A stretch of 6,186 nucleotides of DNA from Ruminococcus difficilis (GTDB lineage Bacteria > Bacillota_A > Clostridia > Oscillospirales > Acutalibacteraceae): positions 1 to 6,186 of the forward strand of contig NZ_JAEQMG010000195.1 in the NCBI RefSeq assembly GCF_016680995.1, read 5' to 3'. Positions 2 through 6,180 of this stretch are shown in pieces (positions within the stretch are counted from its first letter, which is position 1; each line of letters begins with the position of its first letter). The translations under genes were made by a program, and so were the position numbers. The notes beneath the pieces are model-generated. The model was not told the DNA's origin and ran no database searches. It saw only the letters and a program-made list of their open reading frames with translations.

Positions 2-190
2 GCAAAGACGGGCACCGCCGAAAACGCCGGAAGCGACCACGCGGCGTTCATCTGCTTCGCGCCGTTTGAAAAGCCCGAGGTCGCGGTCTCGGTGATAATC
101 GAGCACGGCGCGAACACAAAATTCGCCATGCGCACGGCAAAGGATATGCTCAGCGCATATTTTGAAAATTCACCCAAAACTAATAACTAA
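2..190 (+). CDS. Class B penicillin-binding protein (transpeptidase), C-terminal fragment
   Basis: Only the last 62 residues are present; the gene begins upstream of the window. The fragment opens with A-K-T-G-T-A-E, the KTG(T) box that forms one wall of the active site in DD-transpeptidases. It continues with HAAFICFAPFEKPEVAVSVIIEHG, whose pattern (HA-x-F, FAP, P-E-(I/V)-A-V, E-x-G) is typical of the end of PBP2/MrdA-like class B enzymes. Members are anchored in the membrane by their N terminus and cross-link peptidoglycan outside the cell. Elongation-type PBP2 fits best because a minD-like gene follows, as in clostridial mre-pbp-min clusters, but a SpoVD/FtsI-type protein cannot be excluded. 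The last residues (S-P-K-T-N-N) and the TAA stop are encoded inside a short 7-bp repeat, so the original C terminus may have been altered. Confidence 0.85.
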   Translation, partial: AKTGTAENAGSDHAAFICFAPFEKPEVAVSVIIEHGANTKFAMRTAKDMLSAYFENSPKTNN

Positions 191-194
191 TAAC
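169..194 (+). repeat. Short heptad repeat (array A) after TTCAC, overlapping a gene end
   Basis: TTCAC (169-173) is followed in phase by CCAAAAC (174-180), TAATAAC (181-187) and TAATAAC (188-194). The last two heptads are identical. The array supplies the stop codon (188-190) and last codons of the penicillin-binding protein. It has the same TTCAC-plus-heptads layout as the arrays at 4787-4812, 4917-4956 and 5816-6086. With only two identical copies it could be coincidental; the resemblance to the others is what makes it worth recording. Confidence 0.5.
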
Positions 195-275
195 TACGTG
201 AGTTTGCTCGGACTTATTAAGCACTATGCCCAAAATAAATATTAAAAATTTGTTTGATAAAATCCTCCGCTTTTG

Positions 276-304
276 TTGCTCTTTTGGAAATTTTGTGTTA
301 GAAT
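276..304 (+). promoter_or_regulatory. Candidate extended -10 promoter for the minD-like gene
   Basis: A -10 box TAGAAT (299-304) matches TATAAT at five of six positions. It is preceded by TG one base upstream (296-297), the extended -10 feature. Seventeen bases further upstream lies TTGCTC (276-281), a weak -35. The surrounding spacer (191-324) is AT-rich and holds no gene. Transcription would start near 311, which would place the ribosome binding site GAGG (311-314) at the extreme 5' end of the message. That is unusual and lowers confidence. The gene may instead be read from an upstream promoter. Confidence 0.4.
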
Positions 305-324
305 AGACAAGAGGTATTGTAATT

Positions 325-1071
325 ATGAACAATGTAATCGTTGTGGCGTCCGGCAAAGGCGGCACAGGTAAGTCAACCGTCTGCATTTGCCTCTCGGTTT
401 CGCTTGTCAAACAGGGCAAAAGAGTGCTGCTGATCGACTGCGACTGCGGTATGCGCGGACTTGACATTATGCTCGACATTGAGCAGGATATTCTTTTTGA
501 CGCGTCCGACGCCGTCTGCGGCAACTGCGGCTTCGGCGAGGCGGTCTACAAAAGTAAAAACAACGATAATCTCTTTTTGATGGCGGCTCCCTTTGACGCG
601 GAGAACGAGCTCAGTCCCTCGGTTTTCCGTCAGCTGGTAGACGCGGTCAAGGGCGGCTTCGACTACGTGATTATCGATTCGCCCGCGGGCATCGGCTCAG
701 GCTTCGTTACGGCTGCCGCTCCTGCCGACCGCGCGCTTATCGTTACCAACGCCGAACCCACCAGCGTCCGCGGTGCGGTCAAGGTGCGCAAGCGTCTTGA
801 GGCTCTCGGAATCGGCGACGCGCGTCTTGTTATCAACAGGTTCGACAAGCGCGTGTTCAAAAAGCTCGGGTTTTATCCCGACCTCGACGCGGTCATCGAC
901 GCGGCTCAGACTCAGCTCATTTCGCTCGTGCCGTTTGACATCAACATTTCGATCGTCATGCAAAAGGGCGCAGCAGGCGTTGAAAGCGGTTCCTCGTTCG
1001 CCCCGTTCGAAAGACTCGCCCGGCGCGTAGAGGGTGCGCCGTGTCCCCTTGTGCTCAAGGGTATGTTATGA
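325..1071 (+). CDS. minD: MinD-type septum-site ATPase (ParA/MinD superfamily)
   Basis: The 248-residue product carries the deviant Walker A motif GKGGTGKST, with the signature lysine K11 and the P-loop lysine K16. The D-x-D-x-G-x-R-x-L-D switch segment (D38 to D47) is typical of MinD rather than ParA. A Walker B region D-Y-V-I-I-D-S-P-A-G (about 113-122) follows, then a TNAEPTSVRGA segment matching the MinD TNPE-x-(S/T)SVRD region. MinD proteins bind ATP, dimerise on the membrane and help place the division septum. The start is ATG 325 with GAGG ten bases upstream. Oddities: at 248 residues it is somewhat short, and its end (G-A-P-C-P-L-V-L-K-G-M-L) does not resemble the amphipathic membrane-targeting helix of E. 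coli or Bacillus MinD. No minC or minE is adjacent. A MinD-like protein with another partner is possible. Confidence 0.85.
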   Translation: MNNVIVVASGKGGTGKSTVCICLSVSLVKQGKRVLLIDCDCGMRGLDIMLDIEQDILFDASDAVCGNCGFGEAVYKSKNNDNLFLMAAPFDAENELSPSVFRQLVDAVKGGFDYVIIDSPAGIGSGFVTAAAPADRALIVTNAEPTSVRGAVKVRKRLEALGIGDARLVINRFDKRVFKKLGFYPDLDAVIDAAQTQLISLVPFDINISIVMQKGAAGVESGSSFAPFERLARRVEGAPCPLVLKGML

Positions 1072-1100
1072 TTTTATGATTTAGATAATTTGAGATAATT
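1066..1100 (+). repeat. Two small tandem direct repeats in the minD-mgsA spacer
   Basis: TTATGATT occurs twice head to tail (1066-1073, 1074-1081); the minD stop codon TGA lies in the first copy. Directly after come TTAGATAATT (1081-1090) and TGAGATAATT (1091-1100), differing at two of the first three bases. Each GATAAT could act as a -10 box for the next gene, but I find no good -35 at 16-18 bases. No function is assigned. Confidence 0.4.
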
Positions 1101-1111
1101 CTGTAGTGTTT

Positions 1112-1116
1112 GGAGG
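1112..1116 (+). promoter_or_regulatory. Ribosome binding site that decides the mgsA start
   Basis: GGAGG ends nine bases before ATG 1126, a normal spacing. It is only three bases from the in-frame TTG at 1120, which rules against the two-residue longer form. Confidence 0.85.
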
Positions 1117-1125
1117 ATTTTGGAT

Positions 1126-1521
1126 ATGAATATTGCGCTTATCGCTCACGATGAAAAGAAAGAATTAATGGTGCAGTTCTGCATCGCGTACTGCGGCACG
1201 CTCAGCCGCAACAACCTTTGCGCCACCGGCACAACGGGTAAAATGGTATCCGAAGCAACCGGCCTGTCGATCCAAAAGTTCCTCGCCGGCTCTCAGGGAG
1301 GCAGCCAGCAGATCGCCGCGCGCATCGCGTGCAACGAGGTCGATATGCTCCTCTTCTTCCGCGATCCGCTCAGCCCCAAGCCCAACGAGCCTAACGATAT
1401 GAATATGCTCAGACTCTGCGATATGCACAACGTGCCCGTCGCAACCAATATCGCCACCGCCGAGGTGCTTATCCACGGCCTTGAGCGCGGCGATCTCGAC
1501 TGGAGAAACATCCTCAAGTAA
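1126..1521 (+). CDS. mgsA: Methylglyoxal synthase homologue with substituted catalytic residues
   Basis: The 131-residue product fits the small single-domain MGS fold along its whole length. Family landmarks are IALIAHDEKK at the N terminus (H8, D9, K12 match E. coli H19, D20, K23), ATGTTG (T34, T36, T37 match T45, T47, T48), G55, the R-D-P-L segment (D80 matches D91) and VPVATNIATAE near the end. MgsA turns dihydroxyacetone phosphate into methylglyoxal and phosphate in the cytoplasm, a bypass used when phosphate is scarce. Here GGDQQ reads GGSQQ, so the catalytic-base position Asp71 is Ser60. P-H-D-P-D reads P-N-E-P-N, so His98 is Asn87 and Asp101 is Asn90. The phosphate-site residues remain. 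The gene may encode an inactive or repurposed phosphate-ligand-binding protein, as MGS-like domains do in carbamoyl phosphate synthetase. It lies 54 bases after minD with its own GGAGG. Confidence 0.93.
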   Translation: MNIALIAHDEKKELMVQFCIAYCGTLSRNNLCATGTTGKMVSEATGLSIQKFLAGSQGGSQQIAARIACNEVDMLLFFRDPLSPKPNEPNDMNMLRLCDMHNVPVATNIATAEVLIHGLERGDLDWRNILK

Positions 1522-1541
1522 GCGCGGCACTGCGCTCTTTT
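1521..1541 (+). terminator. Weak intrinsic terminator candidate after mgsA
   Basis: AGCGC (1521-1525) pairs with GCGCT (1532-1536), with an added G-T pair closing the loop, followed by CTTTT (1537-1541). It starts on the last base of the mgsA stop codon. The stem is short and the T-run brief, so termination would be weak or partial. Confidence 0.4.
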
Positions 1542-1542
1542 C

Positions 1543-1563
1543 GGCATGCGCAAACGCATTGCC
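1543..1563 (+). other. Hairpin in the hisS leader
   Basis: GGCATGCG (1543-1550) pairs with CGCAT-T-GCC (1555-1563) around a four-base CAAA loop, with one bulged T at 1560. It is the second of four stems between mgsA and hisS. It has no T-run, so it does not look like a terminator. Confidence 0.4.
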
Positions 1564-1589
1564 TCGCAAATCAAAACGGTTAATTCAGC

Positions 1590-1614
1590 GTCGGGCGGCG
1601 TAATGTCGCCCGAT
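1590..1614 (+). other. Strong GC-rich hairpin in the hisS leader
   Basis: TCGGGCG (1591-1597) pairs with CGCCCGA (1607-1613). G-T and C-G pairs extend it inward to a five-base loop at 1600-1604, and a G-T pair extends it outward. No T-run follows. It may be a leader-RNA structure or the remnant of a repeat element. Confidence 0.45.
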
Positions 1615-1632
1615 ACTTATGTATATGGGAAA

Positions 1633-1666
1633 TTTGCAGCGGCGCACGGTGGTGCGCCCTTTGCAG
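1633..1666 (+). repeat. Hairpin flanked by 7-bp direct repeats upstream of hisS
   Basis: GGCGCAC (1641-1647) pairs perfectly with GTGCGCC (1652-1658) over a GGTG loop. The stem sits between two exact copies of TTTGCAG (1633-1639 and 1660-1666). The second copy ends seven bases before the hisS ribosome binding site, so the stem could affect translation initiation. Direct repeats around a palindrome can also mark a small inserted element, but seven bases is short and no related copy is visible in this window. Confidence 0.4.
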
Positions 1667-1673
1667 GTTATAT

Positions 1674-1678
1674 GGAGG
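1674..1678 (+). promoter_or_regulatory. Ribosome binding site that decides the hisS start
   Basis: GGAGG ends six bases before ATG 1685. The upstream in-frame ATGs at 1619 and 1625 have no such site and would add residues unlike any HisRS, so 1685 is preferred. Confidence 0.9.
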
Positions 1679-1684
1679 TATATC

Positions 1685-2980
1685 ATGGCATTAATCACGA
1701 AGAAAATCAAGGGCACCGAGGACGTGCTGCCCCGTCAGAGCTACCGCTGGCAGTTCATCGAGGGCGTCATGCGCGAGGAGGCGAAGGCATACGGCTTCAA
1801 GGAGATCCGCACGCCTGTCTTTGAGCACACAGAGCTCTTCGCGCGCGGCGTGGGTCAGACGACCGACGTCGTTCAGAAGGAGATGTACACCTTCGACACA
1901 AAGGGCGGCGAGAGCGTTACCCTGCGTCCCGAAGGTACCGCGGGCGCGGCGAGAGCGGTGCTTGAGCACAACCTCGAAAACGAGGGTCTGCCGATAAAGG
2001 CGAGCTACTTCGTTTCCTGCTACCGCTACGAGAAGCCGCAGGCAGGCAGACTCAGAGAGTTCCACCAGTTCGGTCTTGAGGAGTACGGCACGCAGTCTCC
2101 CGTTGCCGACGCGGAGCTTATCTGCGCGGCGCAGTCGATTCTCGACAGACTCGGTCTTGACAAGGTAAGGCTTGAGATAAACTCCATCGGCTGTCCCGAA
2201 TGCCGCGCAAAGTACAATCAGGCGCTGCGCGACTACTTCGGCGGCTACCGCGGGCAGCTCTGCACCACCTGCCTGAGCCGTCTTGAGAAAAATCCCATGC
2301 GTCTGCTCGACTGCAAAAGTCCCGAGGACAAGGCAATCGCAAAGGACGCTCCCAAAATCACCGACTACCTCTGCGAGGAGTGCGAGGCGCACTTTGCTGA
2401 GGTTCAGAAATATCTCGGCTGCGCAGGCGTTGAATACACCGTCAACCCCACAATCGTGCGCGGTCTCGACTACTACACCAAGACCGTCTTTGAGTTCGTC
2501 ACCGACTGCATAGGCGCACAGGGCACCGTCTGCGGCGGCGGCAGATACGACGGACTTATGGAGGAGCTCGGCGGAAAGCACACTCCGTCGCTCGGCTTCG
2601 CGATGGGACTTGAGCGCCTGCTGATGGTCATGGACGCTCAGGGAATCGAGATCCCCGACACAAGCTCCTGCGCTCTCTACATCGCCACGATGGGCGACGA
2701 AGCAAAGGCTAAGGCGTTTGAGCTGCTCAAGCGCGTCCGCGAGTGCGGTCTGACCGCCGAAACCGACGTTGTAGGCAGAGGTCTCCGCGCCCAGATGAAG
2801 TATGCCGACAAGATCGGCGCGCGTTACTCGATGGTGCTCGGCGACAACGAGATCGCCGAAAACAAGGCTAAGGTCAAGAACATGGAGAGCGGCGAGCAGA
2901 CAGAGCTTGCGCTCGACGAAAGCTTTGCCGAGAAATTCTCGGTGCTGCAATTGGCAAGCGACAAGGCGTTTGGAATTTAA
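1685..2980 (+). CDS. hisS: Histidine--tRNA ligase (HisRS)
   Basis: This 431-residue class II aminoacyl-tRNA synthetase joins histidine to tRNA(His) in the cytoplasm. The N terminus (IKGTEDVLP, residues 8-16) is the family's usual opening. TLRPEGT (79-85) contains the histidine-binding glutamate E83. Motif 2 is C-Y-R-Y-E-K-P-Q-A-G-R (112-122). The HisRS-specific RGLDYYT box (259-265) includes R259, equivalent to the catalytic arginine of the E. coli enzyme. Motif 3 contains GGGRYDGL and SLGFAMGLERL. The last ~100 residues form the anticodon-binding domain. The insertion domain keeps its usual cysteines (C-P-E-C, C-T-T-C, L-D-C-K, C-E-E-C). The gene is 36 bases from aspS with no clear terminator between, so the two are probably co-transcribed, as in many Firmicutes. 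A leader with several hairpins precedes it. Confidence 0.98.
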   Translation: MALITKKIKGTEDVLPRQSYRWQFIEGVMREEAKAYGFKEIRTPVFEHTELFARGVGQTTDVVQKEMYTFDTKGGESVTLRPEGTAGAARAVLEHNLENEGLPIKASYFVSCYRYEKPQAGRLREFHQFGLEEYGTQSPVADAELICAAQSILDRLGLDKVRLEINSIGCPECRAKYNQALRDYFGGYRGQLCTTCLSRLEKNPMRLLDCKSPEDKAIAKDAPKITDYLCEECEAHFAEVQKYLGCAGVEYTVNPTIVRGLDYYTKTVFEFVTDCIGAQGTVCGGGRYDGLMEELGGKHTPSLGFAMGLERLLMVMDAQGIEIPDTSSCALYIATMGDEAKAKAFELLKRVRECGLTAETDVVGRGLRAQMKYADKIGARYSMVLGDNEIAENKAKVKNMESGEQTELALDESFAEKFSVLQLASDKAFGI

Positions 2981-3016
2981 ACCGCGCCTTTTAACAATCT
3001 ACGGAGGAATAATAAC

Positions 3017-4786
<1,770 letters not shown>

Positions 4787-4814
4787 GATATGAGAGCGGA
4801 GAGTTAAGTGAACG

Positions 4815-4829
4815 GCGGGCGCTGCCCGC
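4815..4829 (+). other. Short GC hairpin in the element core
   Basis: GCGGGC (4815-4820) pairs perfectly with GCCCGC (4824-4829) across a GCT loop. It lies just inside the left TTCAC boundary. No T-run follows directly, so it is a structural feature rather than a standard terminator. Confidence 0.5.
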
Positions 4830-4830
4830 A

Positions 4831-4878
4831 CCCGATTTATATTGTTTTACGGTCACGCGCAATATTGATTCAGTCGGG
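4831..4878 (+). other. Extended two-part stem in the element core
   Basis: CCCGA (4831-4835) can pair with TCGGG (4874-4878), and ATATTG (4839-4844) with CAATAT (4860-4865). They are separated by an asymmetric internal loop and capped by a 15-base loop. This fold competes with the terminator-like stem at 4872-4889, because both use TCGG (4874-4877). Confidence 0.4.
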
Positions 4879-4889
4879 CGCCGATTTTT
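4872..4889 (+). terminator. Candidate intrinsic terminator for hisS-aspS
   Basis: TCGG (4874-4877) pairs with CCGA (4881-4884) over a GCG loop, extended by G-T and A-T pairs, and runs directly into TTTTT (4885-4889). The stem is short but placed correctly, about 90 bases after aspS and inside the repeat element. If it works, the element itself supplies transcription termination. Confidence 0.45.
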
Positions 4890-4973
4890 CCAAAACACCG
4901 CGCTTTCCGCACGACCTTCACTCCACTCTTAACTCTTAACTCTGAACTCTGACTAACGAAAGGACGTGTTCAA

Positions 4974-5756
4974 ATGGGCTGGGCTAGTATTATTGTGCCG
5001 CTCGCTATAATCGCGGCGCTCGCAGTTACCGTTCTGGTAATTTTTCTGTACATAAAATACCGCCTGCAAAGGTTCTCCAAGGAGGCATTCGGCACCAAGG
5101 ATTTTGCCAAGGCGATGAAGGATATCGAGCGGTCAACCGAGTCCGCACGTTCGGTTCACGGCATGACCGACATCTACCTGCCGCTGATTCAGAAGGACTT
5201 TCCCGATTTCGACTACGACGTATTCAAGGGCAGGGTCGAGGGCGTGCTCAAGAGCTACTTTGCCGCCATCACCGCGAAGGACGACGGTCTGCTCTCGCCG
5301 GACTGCTCGCAGTCGATCCGCAACACGGTTATCGGTCTGATACACGAGCTTGAGGCTAAGGACTACGTTCACGAGCACCGCGAGGTAACTGTTCATCAGA
5401 TGGAAATCGCGCGTTACCTCAAGAACGGCCCCACCGTGACGATACTGTTCAACGCCGCCGTCGGAATGTACGACTACGTTACCGACGCAAACGGCAAGGT
5501 GGTTATGGGCAACAGCGAGAAGAAGTCGCAGAAGCTCTTTGACGTGGCTCTCGTTTACGCGCAGGATCCCGACAAGATGAGCGTTTCGTCGATGACCACC
5601 GCTATGGGCGTTAACTGCCCGAACTGCGGCGCGCCGATCACGAACCTCGGTCAGAAATACTGCAACTACTGCGGCACCGGTATCCGCGAAATCAACGTCC
5701 GCTCGTGGAGCTTTGAGTACATTCAGGAAAACAAGACCACCAGCTCGCCGTACTGA
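4974..5756 (+). CDS. Membrane-anchored Tim44-like protein with C-terminal zinc ribbon, function unknown
   Basis: The 260-residue product begins with one hydrophobic segment (about residues 5-27) followed by K-Y-R-L-Q-R. This predicts an N-out/C-in membrane anchor with a cytoplasmic body. Residues about 35-205 form an alpha/beta region whose pattern (long helices near D-F-P-D-F-D-Y-D-V-F-K, then strands near V-H-Q-M and G-P-T-V-T-I-L-F) resembles the Tim44/NTF2-like fold seen in bacterial proteins of this layout; that match is inferred by eye. A zinc ribbon follows: C215-x2-C218-x11-C230-x2-C233, within CPNCGAP and YCNYCGTG. The tail is short and polar. ATG 4974 has AAAGGA nine bases upstream. 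It sits between two repeat elements and is probably its own unit. No substrate or partner can be named. Confidence 0.85.
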   Translation: MGWASIIVPLAIIAALAVTVLVIFLYIKYRLQRFSKEAFGTKDFAKAMKDIERSTESARSVHGMTDIYLPLIQKDFPDFDYDVFKGRVEGVLKSYFAAITAKDDGLLSPDCSQSIRNTVIGLIHELEAKDYVHEHREVTVHQMEIARYLKNGPTVTILFNAAVGMYDYVTDANGKVVMGNSEKKSQKLFDVALVYAQDPDKMSVSSMTTAMGVNCPNCGAPITNLGQKYCNYCGTGIREINVRSWSFEYIQENKTTSSPY

Positions 5757-5820
5757 TGAGCCGGCAGCTAACTGCGGTGACTGCCAGATAAATACAAATC
5801 GGAGCGAAGCGACCCTTCAC
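5757..5820 (+). other. Leader of the large heptad array, with GCGAAGC mini-hairpin
   Basis: This non-coding stretch holds GGCAG (5763-5767), which can pair with CTGCC (5781-5785) or, in part, with CTGC (5772-5775). It also holds GCGAAGC (5804-5810), a heptamer known to form an exceptionally stable small DNA hairpin. Directly after come CGACCC and TTCAC (5816-5820), then the array. The run CGACC(C)TTCACT also precedes array C (4912-4922), pointing to a common boundary motif. No convincing intrinsic terminator for the zinc-ribbon gene is visible. Confidence 0.5.
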
Positions 5821-6086
5821 TACCAACTACCAACCACCAACTGTCAACCACCAACTACCAACCACCAACTGTCAACCACCAACTACCAACTACCAACCAC
5901 CAACTGTCAACCACCAACCACCAACTGTCAACCACCAACTACCAACAACCAACTACCAACTACCAACTACCAACTACCAACTACCAACTACCAACTACCA
6001 ACTACCAACTACCAACTACCAACTACCAACTGCCAACTACCAACTACCAACTACCAACTGCCAACTACCAACTACCAACTACCAAC
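5821..6086 (+). repeat. 38-unit heptanucleotide tandem array (array D, TACCAAC)
   Basis: The 266 bases parse into exactly 38 heptads with no indels: 23 TACCAAC, 8 CACCAAC, 4 TGTCAAC, 2 TGCCAAC and 1 AACCAAC. Every unit ends in CAAC, and variation is confined to the first three bases. TGTCAAC always lies between two CACCAAC units, forming a 21-bp module four times (units 3-5, 7-9, 12-14, 15-17). Units 20-38 are nearly uniform TACCAAC, with TGCCAAC at units 31 and 35. The plus strand has only six G residues, so RNA from it would be almost unstructured. It lies between the zinc-ribbon gene and the next gene and has no CRISPR-like spacers. Confidence 0.97.
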
Positions 6087-6180
6087 TAATTTTCCTCTTG
6101 CAATTTAAAGCAATATATATTAAACTATAGATAATGGGAGAATATTTTTCTCTAATCTGTTATAAAAAGGAGTTTTTACT
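6087..6180 (+). promoter_or_regulatory. AT-rich leader of the next gene, with ribosome binding site
   Basis: Composition changes sharply at the array edge to an AT-rich stretch. TTGCAA (6098-6103) with TAAACT (6121-6126) at 17 bases is a weak promoter candidate. TATATT (6116-6121) and GATAAT (6130-6135) are better -10 boxes but lack spaced -35 partners. AAGGAG (6167-6172) is a clear ribosome binding site eight bases before ATG 6181. Confidence 0.45.

Follow-up and report, generated by a model that had tools for sequence, protein, structure and literature searches.

The heptanucleotide repeats in a 6,186-nt stretch of DNA from a Ruminococcus-type bacterium (the window) are in large part the tails of intergenic elements built around a palindromic core. 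Two of the repeats (B and C) face outward as the tails of a single 170-bp element, and a third (D) forms the right tail of a related one. These elements are dispersed and share cores; their tails point outward in an exact 7-nt register, they are present or absent at orthologous sites, and a tail differs between near-identical strains. Where species share a core, it bears tail units typical of each species.

Elements in the window

The original prediction had placed four heptad sites (A to D) in the window, each beginning directly after TTCAC, and had considered B and C, and C and D, to be related. The sites and the TTCAC positions were confirmed (TTCAC on the plus strand at 169, 4917 and 5816; GTGAA, which is TTCAC on the minus strand, at 4808), and CGACCTTCACT was found at 4912 and CGACCCTTCACT at 5810. 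Both relationships also held, although B and C belong to a single element, as its opposite ends, and are not separate elements. Period 7 was strong by TRF at D (5819-6088, 38.6 copies, score 407) and modest at C (score 45) and A (score 38), while TRF gave no report for B at a score of at least 30; B consists of about three loose units of the same kind as C.

Table 1. Heptad arrays, tails and core parts located in the window.
Feature	Position	Strand	Description
Array A	178..196	+	AACTAAT, 2.7 copies; overlaps end of upstream ORF
Complete long-form element (B-C)	4787..4956	.	core with tail B at left and tail C at right; begins directly past the aspS stop codon
Tail B	4787..4812	-	TTCACT-TAACTCT-CCGCTCT-CATATCT, directed away from core; below TRF threshold
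Whole B-C core	4813..4916	+	ends in CCGCACGACC
S2 palindrome	4814..4835	+	GGCGGGCGCTGCCCGCACCCGA; left end of core
Tail C	4917..4956	+	TTCACT-CCACTCT-TAACTCT..., CTC-type units, including 4 in-register MAYT words (4924-4951)
S1 core end	5801..5815	+	GGAGCGAAGCGACCC; anchor of tail D
Tail D	5816..6088	+	TTCACT, then 38 ACC-type units

We compared the window with G001, a genome near-identical to it in which arrays were counted over 816 kb (n=44), with two sister species, G201 (an isolate assembly) and G202, and with three further relatives. The B-C core with both tails was found again near full length at four other G001 loci (72-79%); the core is present at further intergenic sites of this rumen Ruminococcus genome and partly in the two sister species. 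Matches to the core numbered 14 in G001, 3 in G201, 4 in G202 and 0 in the three other relatives. The S2 pattern, with up to two mismatches, gave 11, 3, 6 and 0, respectively (the backwards control gave 1 for each of the three). At the orthologous gap, the element is missing in L003-L006, and L002 has another palindromic element there.

The S1 core end that anchors tail D has exact copies in 10 of 398 family genomes (135 in total) and in 6 of 394 genomes of the order sample. L001, which is 99% identical to the window, has 34 D units against the 38 of the window, in a different order. The orthologous gap holds S2 and S1 with a TTC-type left tail and a CTAACC-type right tail in G202, and another core with inverted heptads in G201.

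Polarity, register and species-typical units

The family of heptad-bearing intergenic elements that had been proposed does exist, and what its members have in common is a palindromic core and outward units. The general rule is a MAYT-NNN unit, i.e. (A/C)A(C/T)T-NNN, every 7 nt, directed away from the core. Among 41 core flanks, 34 were outward, none inward and 7 tied. Four in-register MAYT words at spacing 7 were counted 209 times in G001 and 34 times in G202, as against 0-1 at each other spacing from 5 to 12. In the family genomes with S1, tails stood on 31 of 34 distinct flanks of S1 cores.

Cores are common to several species, and the tail triplet is species-typical. S1 tail distance was 0.607 within genomes and 0.847 between them, a difference reached by none of 2000 shuffles. 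Judged by eye, CTC-type tails at three orthologous sites have TTC-type counterparts in the sister species. Both flanks of 14 G001 clusters were present in the G202 sample; the array was missing there at 7 of them, and at the other 7 the site was common and the units mostly different. A TTC tail in G001, a CTC tail in G202 and the presence of two classes in G236 are exceptions. AACT heptads, present in 45 of 200 family genomes, were set aside because the backwards control was as frequent or more so in several genomes (AACTTTC-like units match both ways). The fit of published heptamers to MANT-NNN was modest at best, and we do not claim it.

TTCAC and array A

TTCAC occurs seven times on the plus strand of the window and once on the minus strand, and four of these eight occurrences lie at heptads. 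Across the 816 kb of G001, it was found at the inner junction of 12/44 arrays and at the outer junction of 0/44, compared with 1.3% of random 22-mers, so the enrichment next to heptads that had been anticipated is real. It was also expected at every heptad array, as the anchor defining the family; that part did not stand, as 32/44 arrays in G001 start without it. Junctions of 19/44 arrays were classed as 'other', and some arrays have no recognisable core. At some core junctions TTCAC(T) is the first unit that this species usually has, and it is not a defining anchor.

Array A had been counted in the family through its TTCAC, which falls in the 3' end of the preceding coding sequence; the sister species has different sequence in its place, and in G202 the AACTAAT repeats are kept and TTCAC is not. 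A has no core, and its sole tie to the family among the tests made is its MAYT heptads. It probably stands outside the element family.

Genomic placement and origin of the tails

On balance we lean towards B-C and D being non-autonomous, palindrome-cored mobile elements whose slippage-prone tails are homogenised within each genome. Such elements would insert into intergenic DNA, in many cases at 3' ends and close to terminators, with the core mobilised in trans by an enzyme. Polymerase slippage would lengthen and shorten the tails, and turnover or ectopic gene conversion may spread new units among the copies of one genome. TTCACT is a frequent first tail unit in this species. The pattern can be explained without any benefit to the cell. 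Homogenisation within genomes is suggested by a comparison of few species, irrespective of their kinship. Counting against this reading, the 25 families listed out of 138 around 60 core loci (127/153 ORFs) included no mobile-element family. No consistent target-site duplication was seen by eye, the empty sites in G202 being too diverged.

The arrays could instead be ordinary heptanucleotide repeats arising by local slippage in non-coding DNA, with cores and TTCAC as incidental neighbours. Array length does vary between near-identical strains, long near-perfect ACC arrays exist (588 bp at C10:35091), and heptamers are over-represented in many bacteria, for which slippage has been proposed in the excerpts of PMC4692102 and PMC4679880. 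We nevertheless consider this unlikely: polarity is fixed relative to the cores, the same unit classes recur at unlinked sites, tails of non-identical units still hold the 7-nt register, and the short tails that G298 and G348 carry on the same core are near-identical. The tails might also be written in trans: with a 7-nt register, a genome-wide template or enzyme would extend outward from core ends, in a telomerase-like or template-switching manner; a single template change would then alter the triplet species-wide, with cores and insertion sites unmoved. We regard this as very improbable.

Placement and folding bear on a role in RNA, where inverted tails would pair into a long stem kept as a terminator or mRNA stabiliser. 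Convergent gaps were favoured (17/46 versus 98/584), divergent gaps avoided (4/46 versus 150/584), and terminator-like hairpins were close by (11/39 versus 18/319), although terminator proximity may reflect insertion preference; this placement also speaks for the mobile-element reading. B-C folds as a single stem of -52 kcal/mol (z -3.05), which 0/200 shuffles equalled. However, for six CTC/CTC elements an element's own arms paired worse (-32.3 kcal/mol) than arms of different elements (-42.5; shuffled arm, -17.0), so there was no sign of compensatory change, and in several elements the arms are of different classes. A function of this kind appears improbable. It is similarly doubtful, and if anything slightly more so, that a species-specific DNA- or RNA-binding protein recognises the tails as arrays of sites in a 7-nt register, with protein and unit changing together. 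Register and MAYT are constant while the triplet varies by species, and a binding role has been proposed for TAACTGA heptamers in PMC4679880, yet unit numbers are highly variable and the exact S1 core is absent from 388/398 family genomes.

Relation to known repeat families

Bacterial heptamer repeats have been noted for decades and, to our knowledge, have no agreed mechanism. Comparable heptads are known mainly from cyanobacteria, where Elhai in 2008 and Mazel in 1990 reportedly described STRR heptamers in which small dispersed repeats (SDR) are embedded. An SDR is a hairpin, some 20-30 nt long, that lies within heptads. At C7:25660 and C7:49466, GACAGCCACAAGGGCTGTC lies within arrays of a single direction. 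The arrays here are dispersed intergenic 7-bp tandem repeats, as STRR are in the excerpts of PMC2670836, and both have short hairpins in or beside arrays and no known function. They differ in phylum and sequence: the host is of Ruminococcus type and the units are unlike published STRR consensus units. Here a palindromic core has outward-pointing arrays on either side, and this core is common to species with different units.

REPINs (REP-RAYT), as described in PMC3116915, are likewise short, GC-rich, extragenic palindromes that are dispersed and non-autonomous. S2 is a dispersed palindrome, and S1 is not an inverted copy of it. Element ends here bear heptad tails, unlike REPINs, and the REP-associated Y1 transposase (PF01797) had 0 matches in G001, G201 and G202, two of which are draft metagenome assemblies; REPIN membership was rejected on this ground. 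PF01797 did match in 2/6 relatives (G203 and G204). The BrickBuilt MITE of Porphyromonas gingivalis, as portrayed in PMC4596501, is also a small intergenic element with tandem repeats and inverted-repeat ends, but its 23-nt repeat is internal, whereas 7-nt repeats form the outer ends here. With regard to the terminal inverted repeats of MITEs, the tails are inverted in orientation, with arms of the same unit class in some elements and of different classes in others.

Dispersed intergenic heptamers also include TAACTGA of Beggiatoaceae (PMC4679880) and GGGAATC of Xanthomonas and GGGGA(T/C)T of Nostoc (PMC4692102). The Xanthomonas heptamers mostly lie at the same gene pairs in two species, with varied sequence and length. 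A palindromic core with outward polarity is a feature here that goes unmentioned in the excerpts of these two papers. In the open-licence literature, no report on heptad repeats of Ruminococcus-type bacteria was among the matches listed, and none of three S1-core words of 14-15 letters was found. Here, heptamers are tied to a defined core end, direction and register, and sister species carry the same core, sometimes at the same site, with different units. The origin of heptamers and their likeness within a genome thus become testable, and such tests are feasible in bacteria with cultured members.

Searches of plasmids gave no match to the window B-C element or to one G298 element, the latter being the sole element searched in phages, again with no match. 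The 44 arrays of G001 are unevenly spread: 22/44 lie on C7 and none on C1 or C4 (100 kb each). A mixed assembly was rejected as the cause for C4, which belongs to the same lineage since the G202 sample covers 44% of it at 86% identity; coverage of C1 was 2%. Rfam gave no gathering-level matches in the window, L044, L046 or L050, and two group II intron domains at 77-369 of L045.

Heptad arrays in the window and in a near-identical genome

The original prediction placed four intergenic arrays of 7-bp units directly after TTCAC, and all four sites and their TTCAC positions were confirmed in the window sequence. Array D has 38 units, C and A are short, and B consists of about three loose units undetected by TRF. 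The window is 99.0% identical over 6185 bases to CACXAO010000017.1, from the Ruminococcus sp. RUG11079 rumen metagenome assembly, and this assembly (G001, about 2.1 Mb) was used as its stand-in genome. Lachnoclostridium sp. MSJ-17 (G201) and RUG202 (G202), whose Tim44-like protein is 90% identical to that of the window, served as sister genomes.

Features of the window and of related loci
Feature	Sequence	Position	Remark
Array A	window	169-194, plus	
Array B	window	4812-4787, minus	left tail of B-C element
Array C	window	4917-4956, plus	right tail of B-C element
Array D	window	5816-6086, plus	right tail of a related element
B-C element	window	4787-4956	170 bp
131-aa ORF across D	window	5713-6108	not counted as a gene; translates the repeats
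Penicillin-binding-type protein	window		end only; match below Pfam cut-off
MinD/ParA-type ATPase	window		
MGS-domain protein	window		
hisS	window		
aspS	window		
Tim44-like zinc-ribbon protein	window		match just below cut-offs
Palindromic element, GTAGGGGCGACCATTGGTCGCCC ... GGGCGTGCAATGCACGCCCCTAC	L002, MSJ-17 gap orthologous to B-C	1230-1300	different from B-C
Palindromes of CCTCCCTTAGTAAGGGAGG ... GGCGTTTACGCC and CCTCCCCTTGTAGGGGAGG types	L045; L046	19240-19310; 2490-2530	intergenic; adjoin heptad arrays
Two Rfam group II intron domain matches	L045	77-369	about 5 kb from a C7 heptad array

In 816,477 bases of G001, self-repetition at a lag of 7 bases marked 51 segments totalling 3415 bases, against 0-5 segments each at control lags 4, 5, 8, 10, 11 and 13. 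Lags 6, 9, 12 and 15 gave 15, 17, 23 and 42 G001 segments, respectively, which we take to be coding periodicity. AACT heptads matched 183 times forward and 194 times in reverse in G001, and a backwards-pattern control once in each direction. Merging the lag-7 segments after lowering the threshold gave 44 arrays, a count that includes at least one, on contig C14, resembling a different kind of repeat. The link to TTCAC held only in part: in the same 816,477 bases, most arrays lack it, while 12 of the 44 have it at the inner junction and none at the outer, 'inner' being assigned from the C-rich strand and not from core position. Among random 22-mers, 1.3% contain TTCAC.

The arrays are spread unevenly over G001, with 22 of the 44 on contig C7 and none on C1 and C4, which could be due to chromosomal domain structure or to a mixed assembly. 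The array-free C1 and C4, 100 kb each, were compared with C7, C10 and C17 (L038-L077); G+C content is higher in the array-bearing contigs.

Palindromic cores with outward-pointing tails

Two core ends recur: S1, CGGAGCGAAGCGACCC, and S2, a palindrome GGCGGGCKCTGCCCGCACCCGA (variant GGGCGGGACACCCGCACCCGA) followed by ATTTATAT or similar. In G201 and G202 the two ends are combined in a single short element that is tailed on either side, and S1 is joined to an S2-like palindrome in a short two-tailed element in G298, G348 and G236. The B-C element, a longer version, has S2 at the left and a different right end, CCGCACGACC; almost all of its length is matched, at 72-79%, at four further loci in G001. 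Array D retains the S1 end, and its G202 orthologue carries S2 and S1. An additional hairpin, GACAGCCACAAGGGCTGTC, lies inside arrays having one direction on both its sides.

At 41 flanks of cores located independently of the heptads, the longest in-register MANT run pointed outward in 34, inward in none and was tied in seven, the ties including two-mismatch S1 matches that look like chance; in G202 the outward margin is often one unit because AATT is self-complementary. At a spacing of 7, sets of four in-register MAYT words occurred 209 times in G001 and 34 times in G202, whereas every other spacing between 5 and 12 gave 0-1. In these two genomes, respectively, 61 and 36 MANT runs of at least four were counted, versus 8 and 2 in reversed sequence. 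A mixed-unit class (AATTATT, CATTTTT, AAGTCTT, CAGTTTT, CAGTATT) recurs in G001 and at G201 locus L102, so the recurring trait is the register and not unit identity.

Other palindromes were seen nearby. At L189, L196 and L204, an inverted repeat of GTCATTCTGAGC ... GAAGAATCTT type stands beside S1, in place of the S2-like palindrome found elsewhere. Tail ends at L191, L203, L211 and L190, from several genomes, adjoin a palindrome of ACAGTTTATCTG ... CAGATAAACTGT type, which suggests that it is a preferred neighbour or target.

A shared core with genome-typical tails

Exact S1 was present in 10 of 398 family genomes, in 135 copies (45 in G298, 26 in G236, 24 in G267, 22 in G348 and 8 in G092), and in six of 394 genomes sampled from the order; G001 and G092 are common to both samples. 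Of the 135 family copies, 30 had their tails read; these loci, two copies from G201 and the exact copies of the G202 sample gave 34 distinct flanks. A MANT run of at least two units stood on 31 of these and was absent at L183, L188 and L189. The third unit position was C or T in all 127 units, any base being permitted by the search.

The unit triplet is genome-typical: TTG in G298, G348, G267 and G188, CCA in G092, ACG/GCG in G146, TTC in G202, ACC in G001, TTC and CTG in G236, and ACC and GTC in G201. Tail distance at S1 was 0.607 within genomes versus 0.847 between them (0 of 2000 shuffles). The TTG common to four genomes may come from inheritance. The pattern is broken by a tail of TTC units at C7:11576 in G001 and by CTC units in an array at C25:35081 in G202.

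Orthologous gaps between two species

Both flanks of 14 of 31 G001 array clusters were present in the G202 sample; in the opposite comparison, an orthologue was present for 11 of the 22 clusters in G202. Heptads occur in both species at seven of the 14 sites (A, D, C7:95541, C10:21704, C10:35091, C10:39698 and C17:12201). Judged by eye, the unit is identical throughout only at A, ACC units are common to both species in the right arms of C7:95541 and C10:39698, and a CTC tail in G001 faces a TTC tail in G202 at C10:21704, C17:12201 and left of C7:95541. The core-terminator junction at C10:21704 is similar in both genomes, which suggests a single old insertion whose tail has since changed. The array is absent from G202 at the other seven sites, including B-C and also C7:77652, where an additional gene and a further element close by complicate the picture. 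Array D has 34 units, in a different order, at its G001 counterpart (L001), though this count and that of the window may both reflect assembly collapse of repeats. Xanthomonas heptamers offer a parallel: they are reported to keep mostly the same gene neighbours in two species and to vary in sequence and length (PMC4692102).

Possible origin of the elements

With moderate confidence, we favour a reading in which the core palindrome would move as a non-autonomous element, its tails would be prone to change through slippage, and tail units would be homogenised inside each genome. G001, G201 and G202 yielded no Y1 transposase. Of 153 ORFs adjoining 60 core loci, 127 showed none of the mobile-element families, judged from the 25 families listed out of 138. 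The B-C element folds as a single stem (z -3.05). Across six elements, arms paired at -32.3 kcal/mol within the same element, -42.5 between different elements and -17.0 when shuffled; since same-element arms pair worse than cross-element arms, the pairing seems to be a side effect of the units that elements have in common.

Gene context

Genes were called crudely, as ORFs of at least 90 aa, and seven clusters within such ORFs were excluded. On this basis, elements were depleted in divergent gaps (4/46 vs 150/584, P 0.007) and enriched in convergent ones (17/46 vs 98/584, P 0.002). In our own simple scan for terminator-like hairpins, 5 of 22 G001 clusters had one no more than 70 nt away (11 of 175 random points), as did 6 of 17 in G202 (7 of 144), a pooled enrichment of P 5e-5 against points in array-free gaps unmatched for gene orientation.
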